Source of the DNA: Candidatus Gastranaerophilales bacterium
GTDB taxonomy: Bacteria > Cyanobacteriota > Vampirovibrionia > Gastranaerophilales > Gastranaerophilaceae
Assembly: GCA_947589425.1 (NCBI GenBank)
Contig: CANQAV010000016.1
Location: forward strand, 1 to 36,644
Reading direction: 5' to 3'
Length of the DNA: 36,644 nucleotides
The notes under the pieces are model-generated. The model worked only from the letters and a program-made list of their open reading frames with translations. It made no database searches and was not told where the DNA came from. The position numbers were made by a program, and so were the translations under genes. Each line of letters begins with the position of its first letter. Position 1 is the first letter of the stretch. Shown in pieces: positions 1,343 through 34,870 of the stretch.

Positions 1343-1410
1343 AGCCTGTATGCGTAAGCTGATTGTAAAGAAACACATGGTTTGATTATTTGGATCACTT
1401 AGTTTGAGTA

Positions 1411-1472
1411 TGGTGGGGCGGAAGGATTCGAACCGCACATATTCTATTTATTGATACGACTGATTTTCAGCC
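1411..1472 (-). pseudogene. truncated tRNA 3' portion (class II tRNA-like)
   Basis: Read on the minus strand, the segment ends in GGTTCGAATCCTTCCG followed by CCCCACCA. That is a typical T loop (TTCGAAT) with a CCA-like end. Upstream, CGTAT and ATATG can pair as the extra arm of a Ser/Leu/Tyr tRNA, and CTGA/TCAG could be a remnant anticodon stem. The 5' half is missing: no matching acceptor strand or D arm exists upstream. The T stem is also mispaired, with only two clean pairs. It looks like the leftover of a tRNA used as an integration site rather than a working gene. The parent tRNA identity is uncertain. Confidence 0.55.
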
Positions 1473-1705
1473 TTTGCACATTAATATTAACTCTTTTTTA
1501 ATCAGATTTCAAGTGGTTTTGCTTGTCCGAAACGGGACAAATTATGATATGCAGACAGTATCTGATTTTAAGGGCAAAAATTCAACAAATTGTACCGCCA
1601 AAACCCTTAATTCTTCGTCCCGTTTTATAACTTTTCATTTACTATTATTTTAATAAAAAAATTCATTATGTTATTATTAAACAGATAGACTATAATACTA
1701 TTTAT
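1473..1705. other. intergenic stretch, mostly unassigned
   Basis: Between the tRNA-like fragment and the large NTPase gene I see no convincing gene. A short perfect inverted repeat, TTGTCC/GGACAA, lies around 1524-1541. A short minus-strand open stretch (KRDEELRVLAVQFVEFLPLK) could be the tail of a lost gene, but it has no family signature. Confidence 0.4.
1691..1696 (+). promoter_or_regulatory. -10 box TATAAT for the STAND NTPase gene
   Basis: A perfect TATAAT ends nine bases before the ATG at 1706. Transcription would start about 3 bases before the start codon, giving an almost leaderless mRNA. No Shine-Dalgarno sequence is present. No clear -35 element is visible. Confidence 0.5.
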
Positions 1706-4700
1706 ATGAGCAAAATTAATATTATACAGCAAAAGATAAAAGAACTAAGTGGCGGAGAGTTCCAAAAACTTTGTGACAGATATCTATATAAAAAATATAA
1801 TTTTTCGAATATATGTCCACTTGGTTCTGAAGATGGAACAAACAAACCGACAAAAGGCATTCCTGATTCATACGTTGTAATGCCCAATGGTAAATATATT
1901 TTAATTATGTATGGTTCTGTGAAAAGCAATTCATATAAAAAATTGGAACAAGATATTAAATCTTGTCTTGATTCAAAAAAATTAAAATTGGAAAAAGATA
2001 AAATAGAAAAAATTATTTGTGTATATTCATCTACAAATATAAACCCTAAACAACAAGAATTATTAAAAACCATAACCGAAGGAATTCCGCTGGAAATAAT
2101 AGATTTAGGAACAATGTCTTATGATTTACTGGAACATTATCCTTCAATTTGTTATCAAGAATTAAACATACCCATAGATAGCCATCAGATATTTTCAATA
2201 GATGATTTTGTTGAAATATATAATAAAAAATCTTCATCATCGCCATTAGATACAGCATTTATGTTTAGAGAAAAAGAATTATCCGAGCTTAAAGAATCTA
2301 TGTCTAAAACTTATGCAACAGTTGTATTAGGGGCGTCGGGGATTGGAAAAACAAGATTAGTTCTTGAAACCTGTAAATTATTTAATGGGCAAGAATATAA
2401 AGTTTTTTGCATTAAATCTAACGGAGCTTCTATACAATCCGATCTAAATATGTATTTTAATGAATCCGGGAACTATCTTTTATTTTTAGATGATATTAAT
2501 GAAATAAAAGAAATTGAATACATTTTGAGTTTTATTCATACACGGAACGAAGATATAAAAATAAAAATAGTGGCAACTGTTCGTGATTATGCAAAAGAAA
2601 GAATTTTAATCGCATTATCCAAATATAGCGAACCTTCGATAATTTCATTAAAAAAATTTTCTGATGAACAAATTAAAGAATTTTTACAAAAAAATTATAA
2701 TATCAAAAGCACAAAATGTATCGAACAAATTAATAAAATATCCCAAGGTAATATTCGTTTAGCAGTTATGTCCGCGCAAAAGGCTATCAATGAAGGATAT
2801 AAAGCTATAGTAGACGTAAATCAATTATTCAAGTATTATTACTGTAGTATTTTAAATGATTTAAAAGCAGATAGGGATATTTATTGTATTTTATTTATTA
2901 TTGGTTTTTTAGGAGCAACTAATTATAAATTAAACGAAATTACAAAATTATTATTAAATTATTTTAATATTGATGAAAAAAAATTTATCGAAATATGCAA
3001 TCATTTATATACATTAGAAATTATTGATAAATATGAAGATCAAGTATTAAAAATAAGTGATCAAAATTTTAGAGATTTTATATTATATTATGTACTTATA
3101 GAACAAAAATATATATCTGTAAAAGATTTATTATTATTAACCTTGCCGAAACACGTCTCACAAGTAGTAAATGTTTTAAATACAATTTTATCAATATTTT
3201 TTAATAAAGAAACTATAGATTATATAACCACTGAAGTAAACAAAGTTTGGGAAAATAGTGATAAAAATACTGAATATTATTTTGTTAAATATTTTTCTGC
3301 ATTAAATCTTGATAAGACACTTTTATATATACAAAATATAATTAAAAATATAAAATCTGTTCCATATGATATTAAAGATTATAATATTTCTGAAAATTCA
3401 AATAATAGAACAATAACATTTTTTCCTATAGAAGTTTTGTCAAAATTTAAAAGAACTAAATATAGTGCTGATGCTATTGAATTATTATTAGATATTATGA
3501 ATAAAAGTCCAGAATATATCCATGACGTATATATAACATTATCAGAGGCATTTTTGTATGATGATGATTCATATAACGATGACTATAATAGCGAATATTT
3601 ATTAATTGATAAAATTTGGCAGTTATCGAAACAAGGTTCCAAATTAAATGAAACACTTTTATTAATATCAATATTTAAAAATTTATTGCAAATAGAATAT
3701 GATACTACAAAAAGTGCTTCAAAAGGAAGAAGTATTATTATACGGCAAATGTGCATCGCACCGACTGAAAATGCATTTAAAATAAGGAAATATATATGGG
3801 AAATTTCATACAAGCTTTATAAAACAAAAATATACAAATCATATATAGAAAAACTTATATCTAATTATTTTGTAAGCGGTCCTCGTAATAAATACAGAAC
3901 AAAATTCATACAATATGATATGTCTTGTTTTTCAAAATTGTTTTTATCAAAAAGGAAAATAATCGATTTCAATATGGCAGTAATCCTATATAATCTTGTT
4001 AAAATATATGACTATATGGATGTAAAACCAAACGAAGCTTTGTTAAGATATAAAGAAAATAAAGAGTTCATGTTTTTGGTTAATTTGTTAAAAAGACACA
4101 AACAAAATGAAAAACCTCAGATTACTGAACAAAAACGTAAAAATAGATTATCAAAACAAATAAATCAATATAATAAACAAGATTGGATTGATTTTTTTAA
4201 TGCATTTAAAAAGTACGAAAAATGTTCATTTTTATCATCAGAATCAATATATGACGGTTTTATGGATATATTTGAGCAATTAGAAAAAAATCTGACACAA
4301 TTTTTAATTGTAATGAATTTGTATTTTAAAAAGAGAATACGAACTGTTTATTATCCAAATAAAATTATCAGAAATTTGTTTAAATTTTATGGAGTAAAAG
4401 AAACAAAAAGCCTTATTAAACAATGCAGAAAAGATGAAAAAGACCTTTGGTTAAAATCGTTTTATGAAGAATACCCGCAAGATCAAATCAATAAATCAAT
4501 CTGCAAGAAATTAATTAAATTTATGGATAATACCCTTCAAAGCAATAAACCTCAAATTATTCCGGTATTTTCAATTGAAAAATATAGAAAGTGTGACACG
4601 AATATCATCAGAACAACAAGTCAAATGATTTGTAAAAACATGTACGATAATAACAGTATAGTTATAGAATTTTTAAAAAATTATTTTTTTGAAGAAGATG

Positions 4701-5419
4701 CTAAAAAATTAGTAAATATTTATAGTGAAAATATTACAATATTGGAAGAATTATACTTACTTTATATAAAAATAAATGGGGATCATTCAGGTTGTTTGTT
4801 TGTTGAAATTTTTAAGAAAGATGCAGATTTTTGGAATAAATTTACGCAAAAAATTGGGGAAGACAAATATAAAGACTTGTATTACCATGGGATTTTTGAA
4901 CATATTTGGGAAAATGAAAAATTTGCTGATTATATAGATATTGCTATAGATAATATGATATTGAAAAGGGATTATATAATACATTCTGAATTTTTACTCG
5001 AAAAAATTTTCCCAAAACCAAACGGAAATGAAGATTGTATATCAAAACGCCAACAAAAATATATTTCTGATTTCATCAAAAAAAATGCTTATAATATTGA
5101 AAAACTTAAGGTTATTTTTAATGTAATAGTATATAGATATGAAGCTTTGAAGAATGAATACATTCTTGAATTATTGCAAATAAATAATAATGTTGACGTT
5201 TTTAAATCAATTCCCATAGAAAAAATGTCATATTCATTTAGTGGTAGTTTAGTTCCTTTAATTGAAGAACGAATTAAGTCTTTAGAAAATATAAAATTTT
5301 TGCTAAAGGGTACAAAATACATTGAACACAGATGTTATTTAGATAGATTAATTGACATTAAAAAAGAAAAAATGAAACAGGAAAAAATAAGAGATTATGT
5401 GGAAGAAATTTATAATTAA
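1706..5419 (+). CDS. STAND-type NTPase with N-terminal restriction-endonuclease-like domain (Avs-like)
   Basis: A 1237-residue protein. Residues ~1-100 resemble a PD-(D/E)xK nuclease: GGEFQKLCDRYL is followed by KGIPDSYVVMPNGKYILIMYG. Residues ~185-300 are a P-loop NTPase, with Walker A GASGIGKT at 209-216, Walker B YLLFLDD at 257-263 and a VATVRD sensor-like segment near 289-294. The remaining ~900 residues are helical, with no enzyme motif, and fit a repeat-type sensor array. This order (effector, STAND NTPase, long repeat sensor) is that of antiviral STAND (Avs) proteins, which recognise phage proteins and then activate the effector. Oddly, the position that normally carries the catalytic acidic residue (as in VFVEYTT) reads LIMYGS, so the nuclease may be inactive. 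It stands alone, flanked by other defence-like genes. The STAND call is firm; the Avs role is inferred. Confidence 0.75.
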   Translation: MSKINIIQQKIKELSGGEFQKLCDRYLYKKYNFSNICPLGSEDGTNKPTKGIPDSYVVMPNGKYILIMYGSVKSNSYKKLEQDIKSCLDSKKLKLEKDKIEKIICVYSSTNINPKQQELLKTITEGIPLEIIDLGTMSYDLLEHYPSICYQELNIPIDSHQIFSIDDFVEIYNKKSSSSPLDTAFMFREKELSELKESMSKTYATVVLGASGIGKTRLVLETCKLFNGQEYKVFCIKSNGASIQSDLNMYFNESGNYLLFLDDINEIKEIEYILSFIHTRNEDIKIKIVATVRDYAKERILIALSKYSEPSIISLKKFSDEQIKEFLQKNYNIKSTKCIEQINKISQGNIRLAVMSAQKAINEGYKAIVDVNQLFKYYYCSILNDLKADRDIYCILFIIGFLGATNYKLNEITKLLLNYFNIDEKKFIEICNHLYTLEIIDKYEDQVLKISDQNFRDFILYYVLIEQKYISVKDLLLLTLPKHVSQVVNVLNTILSIFFNKETIDYITTEVNKVWENSDKNTEYYFVKYFSALNLDKTLLYIQNIIKNIKSVPYDIKDYNISENSNNRTITFFPIEVLSKFKRTKYSADAIELLLDIMNKSPEYIHDVYITLSEAFLYDDDSYNDDYNSEYLLIDKIWQLSKQGSKLNETLLLISIFKNLLQIEYDTTKSASKGRSIIIRQMCIAPTENAFKIRKYIWEISYKLYKTKIYKSYIEKLISNYFVSGPRNKYRTKFIQYDMSCFSKLFLSKRKIIDFNMAVILYNLVKIYDYMDVKPNEALLRYKENKEFMFLVNLLKRHKQNEKPQITEQKRKNRLSKQINQYNKQDWIDFFNAFKKYEKCSFLSSESIYDGFMDIFEQLEKNLTQFLIVMNLYFKKRIRTVYYPNKIIRNLFKFYGVKETKSLIKQCRKDEKDLWLKSFYEEYPQDQINKSICKKLIKFMDNTLQSNKPQIIPVFSIEKYRKCDTNIIRTTSQMICKNMYDNNSIVIEFLKNYFFEEDAKKLVNIYSENITILEELYLLYIKINGDHSGCLFVEIFKKDADFWNKFTQKIGEDKYKDLYYHGIFEHIWENEKFADYIDIAIDNMILKRDYIIHSEFLLEKIFPKPNGNEDCISKRQQKYISDFIKKNAYNIEKLKVIFNVIVYRYEALKNEYILELLQINNNVDVFKSIPIEKMSYSFSGSLVPLIEERIKSLENIKFLLKGTKYIEHRCYLDRLIDIKKEKMKQEKIRDYVEEIYN

Positions 5420-5477
5420 AATAACTTATAAAATTAATAAAATAGTTTTCGCTAAATAATATACATGCTTATTTATA

Positions 5478-5656
5478 CTATACTTCTCTAATTTGTTTAT
5501 CCGTCCCGCTGAGCCAACCTTGTGGGGTACATCAACATACTGATCTATTTCACAATCTAAACCCTCTTTTCTTAAATTATTTGATAAATCCAAAATATTT
5601 TTAATATGTTTTTTATTATCCCAACTATAACTTATAAAAATGTTCTTAGTTGGATT
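5478..5656 (-). pseudogene. remnant of a SEFIR/TIR-domain gene, frameshifted and truncated
   Basis: On the minus strand from 5656, one frame reads NPTKNIFISYSWDNKKH and later LRKEGLDCEIDQYVDVP. That is the opening of a SEFIR (TIR-like) domain: FISYSWD, a helix, then the DGIDC.IDQY strand. At the following CCCC tract the match moves to the +1 frame as PQGWLSGTDKQIREV, which is the next SEFIR segment (PPQGWP.WM..QI). It then meets a stop. There is no ATG in front: an in-frame TAA precedes the N codon where a start would be expected. The original protein probably had a C-terminal partner domain that is gone. SEFIR and TIR domains act as NAD-consuming effectors in antiphage systems. The call rests on reading the frames by eye. 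Confidence 0.65.
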
Positions 5657-5742
5657 TTAAATGCAATCACCTAAAATGTTGCCGCCTTTATTCTGTTAAT
5701 TTAATATTTGTGTTATGCTAATAATATTGAGGTTTATTTATT

Positions 5743-6804
5743 ATGTTTGAGTTTATAATAGTTTGTCTTGTGCTCTATGCACTATTTGAAGGATTTATAT
5801 TAGACCCTATATGTAAAGCAAAAAGCGAAAGATTTAAAAATACTATTGAAAACTTTACAATCAATTTTATACAACCATTAATAAAAAAAGATGAAAAATA
5901 CCAAATATTTGAACCTGTTTCTTTTGAAACCGTTAAAATATATACAAAGCTTTTAAAAGATGAATTTAATACATCTTATATAAGTGATTTTTGTTGCGAC
6001 TATACTCAAAATTTTTCACAGAATGACTCAAAATTCCAAATACTTCAACATAATTTGGATTTATCCGAACAAAAATACCAAAAAACTTATGATAGAAAAT
6101 GGACTGTTTATCATTCAAGAGATTTTTTAAATGAATTATTATTTAAGGCTTTATACGAAAAATTTGTTAAACAATTTGCAATTGATAATCCCGATTGTGA
6201 AAATGATTGGTATTCTATAAGGGAATGCTATTTTAATACTTTTGAATGCAATACTTCATATTTGATTTATATTTCTGAATATTTTAAACATGCACATATT
6301 GATAATCTTAACTTCAAAAATAATATTGAAATTTTAATATACGAATATCAAAAATACATTAATGAAATTGATACACACTTGAAAGCAAATGAATATAAAA
6401 AATTAATAATTAATGATGAAATATTAGAAACTTCAAAAGATATAAATATGATTGATTCTATGTCAGGTATAGAATTTGAAGAATTTTTAAAAGATTTATT
6501 TCAAGAAAAAGGATATAAGGTTTCATTAACACAAAATACTGGCGACCAAGGTGCAGATTTAATATTGGATAATATTAATGAAAAAATTATAGTTCAAGCA
6601 AAAAGATATAGCACAAAAGTATCTAATAAAGCTATTCAAGAGGCTGCGGCAGCTATAAAATATTATAATGCCAATAGAGCTATTGTAATCACTAATAATT
6701 ATTTTACAAACTCAGCAATCGCTCTTGCTGCAGCAAACAAAATTGAACTTTGGGATAGAGATGTACTTATAAAGCATATAAAATATAAACATTTTAAACT
6801 TTAG
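5743..6804 (+). CDS. membrane-anchored Mrr-type restriction endonuclease
   Basis: A 353-residue protein. Residues ~3-21 (FEFIIVCLVLYALFEGFIL) form one N-terminal membrane helix. Residues ~30-230 are a helical, charged region that I do not recognise. Residues ~238-346 are an Mrr_cat-like PD-(D/E)xK domain: MSGIEFEEFLKDLF, then GDQGADLIL (D272), then IIVQAKRY (Q285, K287), followed by AIQEAAAAIKYYNA and a C-terminal WDRD. All catalytic positions of the D..QxK pattern are present, so it should be active. TTGAGG lies about 13 bases before the ATG. It ends overlapping the convergent HNH gene by 4 bases. Mrr-type proteins cut modified or foreign DNA. The membrane anchor suggests action at the cell envelope, for example on incoming DNA, but this is inference. 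Confidence 0.8.
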   Translation: MFEFIIVCLVLYALFEGFILDPICKAKSERFKNTIENFTINFIQPLIKKDEKYQIFEPVSFETVKIYTKLLKDEFNTSYISDFCCDYTQNFSQNDSKFQILQHNLDLSEQKYQKTYDRKWTVYHSRDFLNELLFKALYEKFVKQFAIDNPDCENDWYSIRECYFNTFECNTSYLIYISEYFKHAHIDNLNFKNNIEILIYEYQKYINEIDTHLKANEYKKLIINDEILETSKDINMIDSMSGIEFEEFLKDLFQEKGYKVSLTQNTGDQGADLILDNINEKIIVQAKRYSTKVSNKAIQEAAAAIKYYNANRAIVITNNYFTNSAIALAAANKIELWDRDVLIKHIKYKHFKL

Positions 6805-7718
6805 TTTGTAGGTTTGATATGCTTATTAAGCATTTGTTCTATATTAAAATCAGGAATATATTTTTTTATAAATTTAATAATAACATCTTCCTGAGTTGTT
6901 TTAATCAATCTTCTTTTACTACAAATTGAAAGTTCTTTTAATAAAACATCACCTTTGCTTTTGAAATTAGAAAATGCTTTCGGATTATCCGAAATCATAC
7001 AAGTGGCAGATAAAAATTTGTTACCAAATAAACATATACCAAGTGTAACAGCATTTTTATAATAACTGCTCCAAATTACATGATAATTTTTAAATGCCTG
7101 AAAGTCAGATAATATTATATGAATAAAAGGGTCTGGATTTTTATATTCTGAAAGTATTCTTGTTCTTATATTTGTATTATTAATAATATCTTCAATTTTT
7201 TCAGAATTCATAATAGTTCTCAGGTCTCTATGAAAACCATATTTAACAAAAGTATCTCCATATAAATAATATCCAAGACCAAGAAATAATTTAGCAAAAA
7301 AACGCTCATAAACATCTAAATTTATTGTAAAGTTAACAGAAAAAGATTTTACTTTATATTCTTCTAATGTTTTTTCCCAGCTTGGAGTATTTTTTTCATA
7401 TTTTTTATGAAAAAGAAATTTATTATTTACAATAGACACATCTACATTTTCGTTAGTATCTTTAATTATAGAATTTTTAAAAATCGGTGTAATTTTTTTT
7501 GAATGACCTTTAAAATTATAATCTTTTGCAATTAGTTTTACAAAAGATTCTTCTAAAAAAGGAGCATCAACAGTTGAACCCAAGTGAGAATTTAAATTTT
7601 TTGCAACCAAAATAGATAAATCTAAATGTCCACCTAATTTTTTGGGTAGAATATGTTCTTTATTTAACAAATTTTCATCAATATAGTCATCAGAATATAT
7701 ACAGTATTTTTTCATCAT
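6801..7718 (-). CDS. HNH-like endonuclease domain protein with degenerate zinc knuckle
   Basis: A 305-residue protein. Residues ~5-55 resemble HNH_5-type nucleases: CIYSDD, then KEHILPKKLGGHLDL (the usual EH..P..LGG) and NLNSHLGSTVDAPF (usually CN...G..VD). The cysteine pairs that normally bind structural zinc are lost, with only the first cysteine of CIYS remaining and the second pair replaced by asparagine. The catalytic-type histidine in EHILP is kept. The remaining ~250 residues are unassigned. The gene is convergent with the Mrr-type gene, with stop codons overlapping by 4 bases. It is divergent from the GIY-YIG gene, sharing an ~87-bp promoter region. Family-level confidence is moderate and the function is unknown. 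Confidence 0.6.
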   Translation of the reverse strand: MMKKYCIYSDDYIDENLLNKEHILPKKLGGHLDLSILVAKNLNSHLGSTVDAPFLEESFVKLIAKDYNFKGHSKKITPIFKNSIIKDTNENVDVSIVNNKFLFHKKYEKNTPSWEKTLEEYKVKSFSVNFTINLDVYERFFAKLFLGLGYYLYGDTFVKYGFHRDLRTIMNSEKIEDIINNTNIRTRILSEYKNPDPFIHIILSDFQAFKNYHVIWSSYYKNAVTLGICLFGNKFLSATCMISDNPKAFSNFKSKGDVLLKELSICSKRRLIKTTQEDVIIKFIKKYIPDFNIEQMLNKHIKPTN

Positions 7719-7805
7719 AATTTCTTTCTATATATTTCAATTATAGAATAAACTAAAAGTATAAAATTTATTGACATAATATTACCATTTCAATATTATT
7801 ACATA

Positions 7806-8537
7806 ATGAGCAAGCAATTTTATGTTTATGAATGGTATAATATAGAAACTAAAGAAATATTTTATGTAGGTAAGGGTACCAGAAATCGTATTAACCATAA
7901 GAAACGTCGTAATAAACTTTTTAAGGAATATATAAAAAAATAATTGTGCAAATCGAATAGTTGCAGAATTTGAAAACGAACAAGATGCTTTTAAATTTGA
8001 ACATGATAGAATTTTTAAATTAAAACAAAACAACGAATGCAAATGTAATCTTGACAATGGTGGGGTTGGAGGAGTAAATTTTGTTTGGACTTCTGAAATG
8101 AAGGATTATATGTCTAAATATAATCCTATGAAAAATGAAAATCAAAAAGAACGCATGTCTAAAGCAAATCCAATGAAAAATAAAGATGTTGTTAAAAGAG
8201 TAGTACAAAAAAACAACGTGCAGTTGTTATAGATGGTATTAAGTTTGAAAGCATAAAATCTGCTTGTGAATATTATAAAGTCTTTGCCGCAGAAATAATA
8301 ACTTGGTGTAAAAGAGGCTATGATAGAAATAAAAGACCATGTAGGTATGAAGATGAAGAACAAAAAACTTTCATTTTAAAAACAACAAATTCAAAAAAAG
8401 TACAAGTTGACGATAAGAAATTCAGCTCAGTTAGAGCTGCTGCAGAATATATTGGTGTTTGGAGTGAAAGTATTATAAGAGCAATAAAAAATAATAGAAA
8501 AATAAAAGGACATACTGTAAAATACATTAATACTTAA
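7806..8537 (+). pseudogene. GIY-YIG homing endonuclease with NUMOD domains, two frameshifts
   Basis: Start and stop are in the same frame (244 codons), but the reading frame moves away and back within it. Frame 1 gives YVYEWYN and FYVGKGTRNR, the GIY-YIG core. An A7 run at 7934-7940 then leads to TAA. Removing one A continues as NNCANRIVAEFENEQDAF and then NPMKNENQKERMSKANPMKN (NUMOD3-like). A second A7 run at 8207-8213 needs one more A to continue as RAVVIDGIKFESIKSACEYY and KKFSSVRAAAEYIGV, two NUMOD1-like DNA-binding modules, ending in GHTVKYINT. Layout and length match I-TevI/SegA-like free-standing homing nucleases. Both breaks lie in homopolymer A runs, so decay, sequencing error or slippage are all possible. 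Confidence 0.8.
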
Positions 8538-8679
8538 TTCTCTATGAAAGCTATATTATACTGTTGCAAGTTAAGTATTTTATCTAATATTATATATAAA
8601 ATCAAATCGGACTTGGAATTTTTTGTATTTATCCATCAATTTTAAATATTTAATAAATTTTGTTACTTTTTAAACTAAT

Positions 8680-8730
8680 AAAAGTCCAAATCGACCGTTT
8701 TGGAATAGAGATAATCAAACGACTTCCGAC
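8680..8730. repeat. degenerate partial copy of repeat B
   Basis: AAAAGTCC, then GACCGTTTT and a later ACTTCCGAC follow the same order as at 1215-1266 in repeat B, with several substitutions. It includes ATAATCAAAC, the inverted form of the TTTGATTAT present in the left B copy. Confidence 0.55.
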
Positions 8731-8763
8731 TTGCTATGTGTTAGTATTATTAGGCATTATTCA

Positions 8764-8843
8764 TAGCACAAACACCATAAATCCAACTCGGAAGCATTGG
8801 AACACTATATCCTACGTATTGTGTCTGTTTTGTATCAATTAAA
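8764..8843. repeat. repeat A, right copy
   Basis: A direct repeat of 287-365. The hairpin arm CTTCCGAGT of the left copy is replaced here by TATCCTACGT, destroying the perfect stem. Repeat B follows within about 40 bases, with no gene between them. Confidence 0.9.
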
Positions 8844-8885
8844 AATTTCTGAAATTTGTGTTATTTTTTCCGAAATTAGGTGTTA

Positions 8886-9194
8886 ATTTTTCCGAAACTT
8901 AGTGTTAATTTTTTGCTAATTTTCAAATTGGACATTTCCGAAATACGCAAACTAAACGTACAATTCAAACACACAGCCGAAATGCAGGTGGGAAAATAAT
9001 TTTGAGCCAACTTTCCGTAATACGCAAACTAAACGTTTCACCAACAAAAGTCCGAAAAGACCGTTTTCCTGAACGGGTAGTTTGCGTATTTCCGACAGCT
9101 CAAACCCAAACAGGAAGCCAACTTTCCGAAAAAAGTAAACTATCCGTAAAAAGCAAACTACTCAATTAACTACACAAACTACTCAATTAACTAC
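8886..9194. repeat. repeat B, right copy, with an added 21-bp tandem unit
   Basis: Positions 8886-9173 match 1055-1342 with about four substitutions and no gaps. Positions 9174-9194 duplicate the preceding 21 bases (CAAACTACTCAATTAACTAC), an extra unit missing on the left. At the other end, a TTTCCGAAATTAGGTGTTAA-like unit just before 8886 is also additional relative to the left copy. The internal inverted motif here is the full TTTGCGTATTTCCGA, which mirrors the direct copies exactly. Confidence 0.95.
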
Positions 9195-13020: not shown

Positions 13021-13480
13021 ATTCTTTTATCTTAACATTAATGTTTCCACTGACAGGATTTTCAGGCACGCATTTTTCTAAAAAACAAGTTTTAAGAAAA
13101 ATTGCTCACTCAACCCGTCAAACTACGGCTCCTCAACTCACCTTGTTTGTCGTGACATCCTGACAGATTTACAGATTTTTTACGCTTTCGCTAAAAATCA
13201 GCAAACTGCACAACTTATTCGTACCGCTCAAATTTCGCCTACGACTAAGTCGTCATCCCGAATAATAAGAGAGTTGGTTTATTACTATACAAATAAAGAG
13301 TTTATTAATGACTAATTCTATTAGAGATGAAAACGATAATCTATTTTATATAGCAGTCAGATATTTCTCTTAATAATCAAAAAATCTGCAAACAAAACAT
13401 AACTTCAGGCATTTTTGGACCTTTACAATATATTTAGATTTAGTATTATGTATATTAGAAGTTATGTTGGCGGAAGTTTA
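13021..13480. other. intergenic region downstream of tRNA-Pro, possible integration scar
   Basis: No gene is supported. The 12 bases GTCATCCCGAAT that end tRNA-Pro (13011-13022) recur at 13252-13263, bounding a ~240-bp segment. That segment contains a dispersed-repeat copy at 13143-13175 and small inverted repeats (ACGACTAAGTCGT near 13241). Beyond 13264 the DNA is AT-rich up to the protease start. Confidence 0.6.
13143..13175. repeat. dispersed short repeat, copy 1
   Basis: TTGTTTGTCGTGACATCCTG followed by ACAGATTTACAGA is similar, with a few differences, to 14739-14772. Both copies lie in non-coding DNA flanking the protease gene. Confidence 0.5.
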
Positions 13481-14651
13481 ATGAAAAAAAGAATACTAAT
13501 TATTTTTGTCGTTTTGATACACTTTATTCCAGCGGTCTTTGCAAGTAAAAATGCTCAACCTTTATCGGCAAATAAAATCTATGAAAACAATGTAAATTCA
13601 ATTCTTTTTATAGAAACGCAAGAATCCAGCGGAAGCGGAATTATTTTAGATGATGCGGGAACTTTTGTTACATGTTTTCATGTTATCGGTAATGCCGATA
13701 ATATATCAGTAACAACAAAAGACGGTAACAAGTATAAAGTAAGAGGTTTTAAATATCTAAATCCTGCCGATGATATAGCTATATTGACAATAAGTTCAAG
13801 AAAAAAATTTACCCCTGTTTCTATCAATACTAACGGATACAAAGTAGGAGATAATATTTATACCATAGGCAATCCGCAGGAAATAAAATTTGTTTTTAAC
13901 AACGGTATTATAAATAAAATAATTGATGATGATAAATAAAATAATTGATGATGATATAATCCAATTTTCCGCACCTGCTTCGCCCGGCTCAAGCGGAAGC
14001 GCTTTGTTCGATAATTCGGGCAATTTAATAGGAATGGTCATTTCGCAGTACAATCCGTCTGTAGCGCAAAATATGAATTTTGCCGTAACAAATTCTAAAT
14101 TTTTACCTTACTTAAGTAAAAAAACTAAAGCAAATACAAAACATCTGCCATGGAACGAGTTTGTATCATCAAGATTATCGGAAAAAAATTTAAAAGAATT
14201 CATCGCATACGCTTTAGATAAAGATAATTATGTAATGTTTTTCAAATATTCAAAGTCACTTATTGCACCTGAAACTACATCGCCTGATGATTATGCTTTA
14301 TACGGAACTATGGCTATAGTTGCTTATATGAGTGATTACGACAACAATAAATTTTTAATTGATGAAGCGATTAAATGGTATACTGCATCAATAAACTCAA
14401 AGGTAAATGAAGAAATTTCTCTTTTCGGATTAATTCAAGCATCAATGATGAAAAATGACTTAGAAAACATTAATGAATACGAAAAGCAGTTGAAAAAGTA
14501 TCATAAAAGTTATAAATTTTTAAAAAATTGCTATAAAGAAGTTGCTAAATGCAAGTATGCCAATGATAAATCAGAATGCGGTGAAATAACACGAGATAAA
14601 ATTTTAAATTATTTATGCTCTTTAGCTAATGATATATACGATAAAAAATAA
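13481..14651 (+). pseudogene. secreted trypsin-like serine protease (S1C/HtrA-like), frame broken by a 22-bp duplication
   Basis: The start is placed at MKKRILIIFVVL, with GGAAG just upstream; the longer frame from 13415 adds an unlikely tail. A signal peptide ends near AVFA-SKN. The triad is present: H67 in TCFHVIGNAD, D98 in NPADDIAIL, and S164 in PGSSGSALFD, the usual GNSGGPL region. A 22-bp tandem duplication (13912-13955) falls between Asp and Ser and sends the first frame to a stop at 13939. Without the duplicate the frame is intact for 382 residues. The C-terminal ~200 residues form a helical, TPR-like region rather than a PDZ domain. The second piece alone (from ATG 13923) carries the Ser but not His/Asp, so neither fragment can be an active protease. 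Confidence 0.85.
13912..13955 (+). repeat. perfect 22-bp tandem duplication inside the protease gene
   Basis: The unit AAATAAAATAATTGATGATG plus AT occurs twice head-to-tail at 13912-13933 and 13934-13955 with no mismatch. Because 22 is not a multiple of 3, it shifts the reading frame. Confidence 0.97.
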
Positions 14652-16121: not shown

Positions 16122-17711
16122 TTAATTTTTCAAAAATGCATCTTTATATTTTTGTATTAAAACTTGCTTATCAACAAATCTGTGCCCTTCCTCGCCGTAG
16201 CTATCCACTTCTTCCGAAGGAACAAATACATATTTCCCGTCCAGCAATTCTCCCGCATGAAAAGCTTTACTGATGCTATATGCACTGACTTTTAACTGCG
16301 CTTCCGCCTGGCGTATTGAATTAAATCGCATATATTTACCGTCTTTTGTTACAACATAAAATGAAATATTTTTTATTTTTTTGTTGTTTCTGGCGGCATT
16401 ATTTAAACTTTTCAATTTTTCCTCATCAAGCACAACTTCGCCGTTTTCCGTATTTTTTTCCGTATCTTTTGCCAGCACAAAAACATAACCTGACAAAAGC
16501 GCATATTTATTAACCGAATGTCTTATCGCTCCCGCCGATACGCCAAGTTCGGCACTTGCATCAGAGATGCTGTCATATCTTTTATAATTTCCGTTATTTA
16601 AAACAGCATATACGGGGACTTTTGAACGGGATGGCGCATAAAATTGAATAATTTCATCGGCTTTTTTATTGTCAAATATCTTATTATTATCGCTATCAAC
16701 ACTTACAACATTTTCTTCAGGTGTAAAAACATATCCGTTAAAATATGTCGTTTTGCCAAGCATAGACTGAATTATATTATGTTCATAATCAAAATAAGCA
16801 CCGTTTTTTATATCATCCGGACTAATGAGTGTATATTTACCTTCTTCATCAAGCATATAAACGTTTCTTTTAAGGTTGTTAAAATCAACGCTTTTTATCT
16901 TAAAAATCTTTTTTAAATCTTCTATTTTTTGGAAATCCACAAAAGAATGTCCGTTTTTATCCTGCTTTTCCACATCTCTTGAATATGCTAAAACCATATC
17001 TCCAAGCCAGCAATTTGAGCCCTTTAGCGCCTGATATACCTGCCCGTAATAATATCCGTACTTATCGGTTATTCCTTTTATGTTGTCAAATTTTTCAATG
17101 GAGCCGTCTTGGTGAATTGCATAAACATATTTTATATTTCTCAGTCTTACAATTGCTTTTTGAAGTACATCATTGTCTATTACCGTGTTTCCGAATTCAT
17201 CCTTTTTTTCCATTTCCGAAGCACAAACAAATGTATACCCCCCTGCACTAACTGTTTTACCAAGAGTTACCGCAGATATTTTTGATTGGTTGAGATTAAG
17301 TTCGTTGCCCGCATCTGACTGGCTTTCAAACCTTTTATAACTTCCGTCTTTTGCAATTGCATAAACGGGAGCTTTGTTTGATGTTTGAAATTCATTTATA
17401 ATTCCCTTAATTTTTTGTTCATCAAGCTTAATTTGTCCGTCTTCGGTTTTAATTTCAACCTCATCCGCCTTAACAGCTCTATAGGATTTATTAACAACCG
17501 TTTTATGTCTTGTGCTTGCGGAAATTTGCGCCGGAGTAGCACCAACCGCAACGGCCGCAACTTTTATACATGGAAATTTATAATGACTTCCGTCTTTTTT
17601 AAACAAATATACGCATTCTTCTCTTGCTGAAAAGCTAAGCGCTTTATTTTCCGGTTTTTTTGTTACCGAAAAAAATCTGAAATTATTATACAATACCGGA
17701 GAAATCTTCAT
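16122..17711 (-). CDS. protein of six ~80-residue NUMOD1-like repeats, unknown function
   Basis: A 529-residue protein. After a 30-residue polar N-terminus come six repeats starting near residues 33, 115, 195, 283, 366 and 450. Each runs: VYAIxKDGxYKRF, a helix-turn-helix-like stretch (SISDASAELGVSAGAIRHSV or SIRQAEAQLKVSAYSISKAF), GYVFV, an acidic linker, and DEEKLK. The F.S...A...L.VS...I pattern is that of NUMOD1 DNA-binding modules of homing endonucleases, as in the GIY-YIG gene at 7806. No nuclease motif, signal peptide or membrane segment is present. It could be a multi-module DNA-binding protein or a regulator. Repeats 1, 3 and 4 are the most diverged. An inverted repeat lies just upstream. 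The repeats are certain; the NUMOD1 link is by eye. Confidence 0.7.
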   Translation of the reverse strand: MKISPVLYNNFRFFSVTKKPENKALSFSAREECVYLFKKDGSHYKFPCIKVAAVAVGATPAQISASTRHKTVVNKSYRAVKADEVEIKTEDGQIKLDEQKIKGIINEFQTSNKAPVYAIAKDGSYKRFESQSDAGNELNLNQSKISAVTLGKTVSAGGYTFVCASEMEKKDEFGNTVIDNDVLQKAIVRLRNIKYVYAIHQDGSIEKFDNIKGITDKYGYYYGQVYQALKGSNCWLGDMVLAYSRDVEKQDKNGHSFVDFQKIEDLKKIFKIKSVDFNNLKRNVYMLDEEGKYTLISPDDIKNGAYFDYEHNIIQSMLGKTTYFNGYVFTPEENVVSVDSDNNKIFDNKKADEIIQFYAPSRSKVPVYAVLNNGNYKRYDSISDASAELGVSAGAIRHSVNKYALLSGYVFVLAKDTEKNTENGEVVLDEEKLKSLNNAARNNKKIKNISFYVVTKDGKYMRFNSIRQAEAQLKVSAYSISKAFHAGELLDGKYVFVPSEEVDSYGEEGHRFVDKQVLIQKYKDAFLKN

Positions 17712-17722
17712 GCATGCACCGT

Positions 17723-17754
17723 TTTATAAACACAATCTTATTTTTGTTTATAAA
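17723..17754. promoter_or_regulatory. 10-bp inverted repeat upstream of the six-repeat protein
   Basis: TTTATAAACA and TGTTTATAAA are perfect inverted arms separated by 12 bases, and each arm contains the palindrome TTTATAAA. It lies 11 bases before the start codon of the minus-strand gene and has no T tract. An operator is more likely than a terminator. Confidence 0.45.
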
Positions 17755-17785
17755 AAACATGAAAATAATATAATTTGCCTTAAAT

Positions 17786-32461: not shown

Positions 32462-33577
32462 TTATTTTTTCTTTTTAGCGTCGTTTTTATTTGCGCTATC
32501 ATCCGCAGGTTGTGCTTGAGCAGGCTCCTGAACATTTATCCCGAGTTGTGCTAATGCGTTCAAAGCTTCTTGTTTAACCGTTTCATCTTCAGAATTTGAT
32601 GCATTGATTAATGTATCTTGTATTGTGGTTGTTAAGCCTGTTTCTTTTTGAAGTTTTTCTTTGTCATTCGGGTCATTTTTCATTGCATTTTGTTTTTGTA
32701 TGTCTTCGGGAGTTGTTACATAAGCTAATGCCTGAATTGCGGCAACTTTGACTTCGGGTCTCGGGTCATTATTTATAATATCCATCATTTCTTTATAACC
32801 TAAAAGTTCGTGAACTTCGGTCGGAAGAACGGGAGTTTCGCCGTTTGCTTTTTGTGTTTCTATATATTGATTTATTTCTTCTCTTTGCAATTTTTGAATC
32901 ATTGACAAGGCAAATAATGCAAAAATTCTGTTTTTATTTGCTTTATCACGGGGAGATAATTGTTCTGCAAGAGCGTCTTCTTCGGGTGTTAATTGTTCGC
33001 CTTTGTTTATTTTTTCAGCTATTGCAATCTGTTGTTCGGTAGGGCCTTCAAGAGAAGTTGTATCTTCTTTAATAATATCAATCAAGCCTTTCATAACGGG
33101 CTCTGATACAACTTGAAGAGCTTTATCGGGAGTATCTTGAACATATTGAGCTATTGTATTTATGGTTTGTGCCCTTTTATCGGGGTCGGTATCGGCTAAA
33201 TTCTTTACTAATTCATCCGTATTGATTGTTTCTGTCGGAGTTTCCTGATTTTGTACAGGTTGCTGTACATTTTGAGGGGTCGGTTGAGGCTGCGTATTTT
33301 CCAAAACACTTTGAGGCATCATCTGAGGAGCGGGAACTGCCGTCAAAGGTGCCTGCTGCGGGGGGAACATATATTGTTGATATGTTTGAGGCAATGCCTG
33401 CGGTTGATACATTGAAGCCTGCGGAATATTGTAGAGTGAATTTGTATATTGGTATGGAACAGTAGCTGCCGACGGAGCGCTTCCATAGGCTTGAGGATTG
33501 AATATGTTAATTGCTACTGCATTAGCCCCGCCATTAGGGTTTGGATATATCTGTTGAGGGTTTATCGGTTGTACCAT
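32462..33577 (-). CDS. HEAT-repeat-like protein with Pro/Gln-rich N-terminus
   Basis: A 371-residue protein. Residues 1-~112 are disordered, rich in Pro/Gln/Tyr, and include GANAVAINIFNPQAYGSAP. Residues ~115-350 are helical pairs of HEAT type (TDPDKRAQTINTIAQYVQD, PRPEVKVAAIQALAYVTTPE, SEDETVKQEALNALAQLGIN). The C-terminus is KKKK. No signal peptide is present. The protein is probably a scaffold; no enzyme motif is seen. The same N-terminal peptide occurs in the neighbour at 34172-34870, so the two are diverged paralogues or share a partner. AAGGAG precedes the ATG. A terminator follows. Confidence 0.75.
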   Translation of the reverse strand: MVQPINPQQIYPNPNGGANAVAINIFNPQAYGSAPSAATVPYQYTNSLYNIPQASMYQPQALPQTYQQYMFPPQQAPLTAVPAPQMMPQSVLENTQPQPTPQNVQQPVQNQETPTETINTDELVKNLADTDPDKRAQTINTIAQYVQDTPDKALQVVSEPVMKGLIDIIKEDTTSLEGPTEQQIAIAEKINKGEQLTPEEDALAEQLSPRDKANKNRIFALFALSMIQKLQREEINQYIETQKANGETPVLPTEVHELLGYKEMMDIINNDPRPEVKVAAIQALAYVTTPEDIQKQNAMKNDPNDKEKLQKETGLTTTIQDTLINASNSEDETVKQEALNALAQLGINVQEPAQAQPADDSANKNDAKKKK

Positions 33578-33740: not shown

Positions 33741-34175
33741 TCATTCTAAATAATCGGTTTTTTGAAATAATCCTGTTGAGTTTTTAATGAAATCCCATCC
33801 TTCCAATAATGCTAATCCGATTGCGGAGATGTTTGCGACTGTTTTATGTTTTGTTGTAAACATTGCAACAGCACTCAGGATAAAATTCGGCAAACATCTT
33901 ATTACACCAACTCCAAAACCTTTTATATATCCTTTAACTTTTGCAAATCCTTCTTCAATTCCTTGTCCGAAAGCATTTTGAGCAAGCCAATTTTTTCTTT
34001 GAGCATCTTTATAAGACACTCTGTTTGCCTTTTGAGCGGATATTGACCTTCTTATCGTAGAATTTGCGGAAGTCTTTACATATTCATTATGGGATGCAAT
34101 TTTAGCGCTCTTGTGTATGTCTGTTATACAAGATGCGATTGAAAGACCAGCTGCTGATTTTGAAATTAGTGTCAT
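33741..34175 (-). CDS. small protein with hydrophobic segment, unknown function
   Basis: A 144-residue protein with no family that I recognise. It is basic in the first half (TIRRSISAQKANRVSYKDAQ). A Gly-rich amphipathic stretch (GQGIEEGFAKVKGYIKGFGV) leads to a likely membrane helix near residues ~93-110 (IRCLPNFILSAVAMF), with a second weak one near ~113-127. Its ATG overlaps the stop of the upstream HEAT-like gene by 4 bases (ATGA), so translation is coupled and the two products may act together. Confidence 0.7.
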   Translation of the reverse strand: MTLISKSAAGLSIASCITDIHKSAKIASHNEYVKTSANSTIRRSISAQKANRVSYKDAQRKNWLAQNAFGQGIEEGFAKVKGYIKGFGVGVIRCLPNFILSAVAMFTTKHKTVANISAIGLALLEGWDFIKNSTGLFQKTDYLE

Positions 34176-34870
34176 TTATTTACCTTTTGTTGTTTAACAG
34201 GTTGAGGTGCAGATAATTTTAACAGGATTTCAGATGCCAAAAGCGCATCTTCGCCTATTTGGTCTTTGTTTTGAGATTGAATTTCTTTCAAAATTTGAAT
34301 TGTTTCGTCATTACCTACACAATAACCTGTTTGTAAAGTTGTCAATGCAAGAAAACGAACAGAAGGGGATGTATCTCTCAACGCTTTGTTTAACAAAGGA
34401 ATTAAAGAGGGATTATCTTTTCTGTTTTCATCTTCTTTAAATCTTTCCATTAAATCTTTAGCACCGATTAAACGAACTTTTGGATTATCGTTATTCATAT
34501 AATTTTCAAGAGATTTAATATAATCATCTGTTAAAGGAACAATTGTTTTTGTTTCCTTTTTATCATCTTTTTTTTCTTCGGTTTTTTCAGCTTCATTATT
34601 CGGAGTTTTATCATAAAGGGCCGTATTATTTGCAGCATTAAGATTATTTGCCCCCGGTTGGTTTAACATATTATTATAATTTTGAGGGTATAGGGGTAAA
34701 TTTGGCATCATATTTTGTCCGTACATTGAATAATACGGCAATTGAACAGATGACGGCACGGCAGCGGGAGCTGTGCCATATGCCTGCGGTGAAATAATAT
34801 TAATATTAACAGCATTCGGATTTGCAACCGGATAACACGGATATGAATTCGGATTGAAATTTTGCTGCAT
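34172..34870 (-). CDS. HEAT-like protein with shared NAVNINI..PQAYG N-terminus
   Basis: A 232-residue protein. Residues 1-~85 are disordered, rich in Asn/Pro/Tyr, with ANPNAVNINIISPQAYGTAP, close to the peptide in the 32462-33577 product. A Lys/Glu linker (EKTEEKKDDKKETK) follows. Residues ~112-220 form HEAT-type helices (NPKVRLIGAKDLMERFKED, TSPSVRFLALTTLQTGY, LLASEILLKLSA). It starts behind GGAAGGGG and overlaps the next gene by 4 bases. It is divergent from gatB. A scaffold or adaptor role is inferred only from the fold. Confidence 0.75.
   Translation of the reverse strand: MQQNFNPNSYPCYPVANPNAVNINIISPQAYGTAPAAVPSSVQLPYYSMYGQNMMPNLPLYPQNYNNMLNQPGANNLNAANNTALYDKTPNNEAEKTEEKKDDKKETKTIVPLTDDYIKSLENYMNNDNPKVRLIGAKDLMERFKEDENRKDNPSLIPLLNKALRDTSPSVRFLALTTLQTGYCVGNDETIQILKEIQSQNKDQIGEDALLASEILLKLSAPQPVKQQKVNK

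Follow-up and report, generated by a model that had tools for sequence, protein, structure and literature searches.

What might a protein do that is built entirely from modules that are known for steering homing endonucleases, when it carries no endonuclease? The question is raised by a gene in a 36,644-nucleotide stretch of Candidatus Gastranaerophilales bacterium DNA (contig CANQAV010000016.1; hereafter, the window), whose product had been read in an earlier note, made from the letters alone, as nothing but six NUMOD1-like modules without a catalytic domain, and possibly as a member of an undescribed family of modular DNA-binding proteins. The analysis described here confirms that observation and supports the interpretation in part. 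Based on homology and structure prediction, we consider it rather probable that this nuclease-free array of NUMOD (I-HmuI-type helix-turn-helix) modules is the recognition arm of an HNH homing endonuclease, detached and amplified, which would now act as a multivalent DNA-binding protein. The coordinates of the features are collected in Table 1.

Table 1. Features of the window, and positions of the leader tag in the window and at other loci
Feature	Position	Strand	Basis or remark
529-aa protein, six NUMOD-like units, without catalytic domain	16122..17711	-	ORF, Pfam and family profile
N-terminal leader, residues 1-32 (MKISPV...ALSFSA), predicted disordered	17616..17711	-	pLDDT about 35 and tag analysis
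Unit 1, residues 33-113, core net charge +8	17373..17615	-	Family profile and charge count
Unit 2, residues 114-193, top family-profile match (87 bits), used for structure model	17133..17372	-	
Unit 3, residues 194-281, core net charge -1	16869..17132	-	Family profile and charge count
Unit 4, residues 282-364, furthest diverged (41 bits), with a core net charge of -5	16620..16868	-	
Unit 5, residues 365-448, best Pfam NUMOD1 stretch	16368..16619	-	
Unit 6, residues 449-529	16125..16367	-	Family profile
AT-rich inverted repeat with perfect 11-nt arms around a 12-nt loop, in the interval from etfA to the array gene	17722..17755		
Frameshifted GIY-YIG homing-endonuclease remnant, 3' part with two weak NUMOD-like units	7806..8537	+	Related to the module but not to the family
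Leader tag sites	window 17616-17711; L092:15291, L097:8490, L102:729, L074:168, L074:6111, L076:3255, L078:2228, L078:2845, L049:2888		Pattern M[KRNQ][IV]...[hydrophobic][STNA]F-x-[GAS]

The leader takes up about 32 residues, and the rest of the protein is filled by six units of 80-88 residues each, one after another. An iterated profile of the family detects all six at 41-87 bits, so that chance can be dismissed as the source of the repeat, and their pairwise identity of 17-39% shows that the array is old and not the product of a recent tandem expansion. In Pfam searches the protein matched the I-HmuI_NUMOD-like family (PF22083) over four stretches with an E-value of 2.4e-23 and 81.9 bits (cut-off 27), and NUMOD1 (PF07453) with an E-value of 6.4e-7 and 29.9 bits (cut-off 22.8), and no catalytic domain was detected. 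Matches to the 'homing endonuclease' models of PADLOC and the 'HNH endonuclease' models of PHROG arise only via the C-terminal NUMOD part of these models. NUMODs are DNA-binding regions whose target contacts extend up to 30 bp (PMC3943268). The Pfam models of NUMOD1 and PF22083 span a core of 37-46 residues only, whereas the unit seen here is about 80 residues long.

The consensus of the unit, derived from 185 aligned units, is PVYAIDKDGNYKKFDSQKEAAKELGISPSNISNCLNGKRKTTKGYVFVYASDVETKDENGNIVVDKEKIKEILK. The AlphaFold2 model of unit 2, predicted with 75 aligned units as input, has a mean pLDDT of 96.3 and displays a strand-strand-helix-helix-strand arrangement followed by a short hairpin and a C-terminal helix; the helix-turn-helix on which the earlier reading depends is present in it. 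A Foldseek search initiated with this model retrieved I-HmuI as the top match (E-value 2e-3, probability 1.0, rmsd 0.8 over 51 columns), and a profile search of PDB sequences with the unit found residues 121-170 of the same enzyme (E-value 1.1e-6). The top three PDB matches of the model are all DNA-binding modules, namely I-HmuI (PDB 1u3e, residues 120-174; VIA-align Z 8.6, rmsd 1.5 over 55 residues, 31% identity), sCTP-23166 of Paulinella (PDB 8b6e; Z 6.6) and the DNA-binding domain of I-TevI (Z 5.0). All of them are aligned within residues 1-57, and the acidic second part of the unit (about residues 51-74) falls outside the matches. The core carries a mean net charge of +2.6 and the tail one of -2.2. 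The C-terminal NUMOD-like module of I-HmuI differs from the present units in being single and joined to an HNH nuclease, and in lacking the 24-residue tail in the aligned region. The Paulinella protein shares the fold, the absence of a nuclease and the membership of an expanded family, but it is a single module of about 52 residues that belongs to a eukaryote, is imported into an organelle and forms no tandem array; unlike such single nuclease-free modules of less than 90 residues, the proteins described here are multi-unit. These short chromatophore-targeted proteins, which are stand-alone relatives of the module, bind double-stranded DNA (PMC12176269). Sequence and predicted helix-turn-helix fold thus support the assignment of the unit as a NUMOD1/I-HmuI-NUMOD-like module. 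In a model of the full-length protein the units are predicted well and their mutual arrangement is undefined (pTM 0.43), which is consistent with beads on a string; a Foldseek search with this model was uninformative because the relative orientation of the units is not predicted.

A census of repeat number in related genomes, which had been suggested along with the original observation, yielded 46 proteins with 2-9 units (170-792 residues) in the fetched regions, 41 matching PF22083 and 31 matching NUMOD1 (PF07453). None of the 46 has an HNH, GIY-YIG or other credible catalytic domain by Pfam, the remaining matches being to HTH families or weak chance matches. In whole-genome searches, the unit was present in 12 of the 28 genomes of the window's genus; it was also found in 10 of 191 sampled genomes of the window's family, across four genera; beyond that family, 289 genomes of the class and 386 of the phylum gave no match. 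The distribution is patchy and, within the phylum, array proteins are confined to one bacterial family among the genomes searched. Two matches are at loci bearing the names of rumen MAGs, RUG14156 and RUG14173, where RUG denotes a rumen uncultured genome. A RUG14156 group has been placed in Gastranaerophilales (PMC12270094). Some family genes form tandem arrays: the L034 genome has six in a row, and the L074 and L075 genomes have three in a row each (with 7, 3 and 9 units). The window's own genome has at least three further members, on contigs C1, C17 and C3. Close relatives at the syntenic locus L038/L041 have 4 and 3 units, and another family member shows a recent duplication of units 1 and 2. 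Beyond the phylum the comparison covered exact-pattern scans, plasmids and phages, so repeat-only families may exist elsewhere. The window protein had no match in scans of genome contigs and viral contigs or in a tblastn search of phages, nor did one family member in a tblastn search of plasmids, and the L038/L041 pair used as scan query returned only those two loci. The module itself and its tandem occurrence in endonucleases are already known; in open-licence papers we found no description of a chromosomal family built solely of NUMOD modules. The nuclease-free array family therefore appears to be undescribed so far, much as the earlier note had surmised, with DNA binding predicted from sequence and model. 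Two further observations from these genomes are a radical SAM protein of a related genus (L085:4955-6235), which ends in a single unit, tail included, and belongs to a cluster of similar cysteine-rich proteins, and a homologue of Rex-like redox repressors, called by eye, near family genes in two genera (L074, L075, L081), which may be plain synteny.

With a consensus-like member as query, the closest nuclease-bearing relatives are HNH homing endonucleases of Lactobacillus phages. For example, orf143 of phage LP65 (AAV35963.1), annotated as similar to SPO1 gene 112, consists of NUMOD4 and HNH_3 followed by three units in tandem, and shares 30.6% identity with a family member in an alignment covering 71% of its length (E-value 9e-14). 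Its core similarity to the family is strong (family profile E-value 5.7e-36 over the protein, in a small set), and the similarity of the tail alone is weak (E-value 0.005, also in a search of a small set); linkers such as GGDFKLDKDKLREI resemble the tail of the bacterial unit. The HNH homing endonucleases of Iacchus and Ldl1, together with LP65 orf143, resemble the family in that they contain such units in tandem, two or three per protein, with a tail that is similar but shorter. They differ in the NUMOD4 and HNH_3 nuclease placed in front, neither of which is found in the bacterial family, whereas the latter has up to 9 units and a leader of its own. PF22083 occurs within the window's bacterial family almost exclusively in repeat-only proteins, and hence a nuclease-bearing parent was not found in these genomes. 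The simplest history, the direction of which we infer, would be the capture of the recognition arm of an HNH endonuclease, loss of the nuclease and amplification of the arm.

We hypothesize that the arm, once split from its nuclease, was amplified to 2-9 units in one Gastranaerophilales lineage. Each unit is predicted to consist of a core of about 50 residues, made up of a β-hairpin, a helix-turn-helix and a strand, and of an acidic hairpin plus helix of about 24 residues that would act as a spacer; every unit would add its own variable recognition helix. The array would bind an extended stretch of DNA multivalently, as the arm of an LP65-type tandem endonuclease would. Given the homology and the fold, with NUMODs and the Paulinella proteins as relatives, DNA binding by the array is likely. 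Since the nuclease is absent, action by occupancy may be supposed, the protein serving either as a lineage-specific regulator (by repression or activation) or as a DNA-organising protein; this cellular role is the weakest step of the proposal and, like any DNA target, is presumed. The view that six DNA-binding modules follow one another holds insofar as all are NUMOD-like, but six is an upper bound, given the acidic core of unit 3 and the divergence and still more acidic core of unit 4, which is possibly not DNA-binding. One of the three units of LP65 orf143 likewise has a core charge of -2, and the acidic units 3 and 4 are thus a reason for caution, charge alone not excluding binding. Between paralogous units, variation is greatest at the positions that the recognition helix exposes, 28, 29, 30, 32 and 33 of the profile (identity 0.10), whereas orthologous units keep these positions (0.66), as expected if the units read different sequences. 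However, orthologue identity at other exposed positions (0.62-0.69) is no lower, so that a per-unit reading code is compatible with these values, which do not demonstrate selection on such a code. It is distinctly unlikely, in our view, that the arrays form a modular DNA-reading system, in which the variable recognition helix of each ~80-residue unit would read a short stretch of DNA, the number and order of units would set the length and sequence of the target, arrays would be remade by gain and loss of units, and the N-terminal tag seen across the lineage would bring them all to the same place in the cell. If arrays did read DNA unit by unit, nature would have supplied a compact scaffold for modular DNA binding. 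Even if they do not, they are probable regulators that lend themselves to study, in a gut and rumen lineage that is uncultured and has seen little experimental work. That NUMODs here make up whole, conserved, multi-copy chromosomal proteins points to the targeting arm of a selfish element taken into host service.

The leader ends in a lineage-typical [hydrophobic]-[STNA]-F-x-[GAS] tag directly before unit 1, and it is this tag that most favours a different reading, namely that the NUMOD fold has been kept and the modules exapted as a protein-binding or structural scaffold, which the tag would send to a protein partner or cell structure, or out of the cell. Among 43 family members starting with M, 36 open with M[K/R/N/Q/..][I/V], and in 39 an F lies no more than 25 residues ahead of unit 1, mostly in an F-x-[G/A/S] context. 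The tag is also enriched on unrelated genes: under a stricter pattern it occurs in 12 of 54 non-family proteins with an M[KRNQ][IV] start as against 18 of 555 others (Fisher p 2e-6), the carriers including a GH77 4-alpha-glucanotransferase, a GAPDH-like protein and uncharacterised proteins. In a control stretch, 2 of 47 M[KRNQ][IV]-start proteins carried the pattern, and a low-threshold test of enrichment on neighbour genes was not significant. The tag is possibly an uncharacterised sorting or export signal, and its being common to the arrays and to unrelated proteins makes a location other than the nucleoid possible; the wide divergence of unit surfaces and the acidity of units 3 and 4 would also suit a scaffold. 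However, the presence of metabolic enzymes among the tagged proteins means that the tag by itself is no proof of export, the nearest relatives by both sequence and fold are DNA-binding modules, and the mean core charge is positive. We therefore regard the scaffold as unlikely.

Helix-turn-helix modules can bind RNA, and the arrays might accordingly be post-transcriptional regulators that bind RNA rather than DNA. Two trypanosome mitoribosomal proteins are indeed among the structural matches of the unit, but at Z 2.4-2.6 they are at noise level, and all close relatives act on DNA, which leaves an RNA-binding role very unlikely.

The homology to HNH endonuclease arms, the patchy distribution within the genus and the broken state of the nearby GIY-YIG gene could also be taken to mean that the arrays are decayed homing endonucleases, functionless since the loss of the nuclease. 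Against this, dN/dS values of 0.14-0.37 in six orthologous pairs indicate that the family genes are under purifying selection, which largely refutes decay, and near relatives keep the genes at syntenic positions. Remnants would neither keep long open frames nor gain units, and the family comprises 46 multi-unit ORFs with a consistent leader; functionless remnants are thus highly improbable.

The multivalent DNA-binding array that we favour is encoded outside any intron, intein or mobile-element location: in the window the gene follows the etf genes, and other members sit among housekeeping genes or within their own arrays. While etfA is present in all 27 genomes of the genus searched, the array gene adjoins it only in the window's genome among 24 etfA loci fetched, and is a lineage-specific insertion next to a conserved etf operon. 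The operator-like palindrome that the earlier note placed ahead of the gene (TTTATAAACA-N12-TGTTTATAAA) is real, spans 17723-17754, 11 bp ahead of the ATG, and is the sole exact copy in the genome. The autoregulation proposed for it is unsupported, because no other family gene is preceded by it (unrelated hairpins occur in a few cases, some of them terminator-like) and AT-rich inverted repeats are common here, a 400 kb sample of the genome containing 10 with arms at least as long and similar A+T (about one per 40 kb). Nor is a terminator supported, as the palindrome is nearly A+T only, has no U tract and folds as RNA no better than shuffles (z-score -0.55).

Two 289-nt direct repeats that are 99% identical (1055-1343 and 8886-9174) bound an island (about 1344-8885) that contains the GIY-YIG gene, whose product the earlier note described as ending in the same module. 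The array gene is 7 kb outside; two weak NUMOD-like units do close the GIY-YIG gene (family profile E-value 9e-8; Pfam NUMOD1 E-value 4e-4, below the cut-off), but it is broken by two frameshifts. That the array might occupy homing or insertion sites and shield them from homing endonucleases or other mobile elements is scarcely credible, for all its derivation from homing-endonuclease arms and the broken homing endonuclease in the window, as the family is not associated with mobile islands, its genes adjoin housekeeping genes, and no matched cutter was found in these genomes.

The island adjoins tRNA-Met and is probably an integrated defence-like island; its genes encode an nSTAND-type NTPase (1706-5419), an Mrr-type restriction endonuclease (5743-6804) that matches PADLOC models including ZorD and the candidate PDC-S02, an HNH protein (6801-7718) and the broken GIY-YIG gene. 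Elsewhere in the window, a trypsin-like serine protease (13415-14651), with the catalytic GSSGSA motif in its second part, is seemingly split in two frames around 13930 by a frameshift or sequencing error, and two neighbouring HEAT-repeat proteins (32462-33577 and 34172-34870) have similar proline/glutamine-rich N-termini (NPNAVNINIxxPQAYGxAP).
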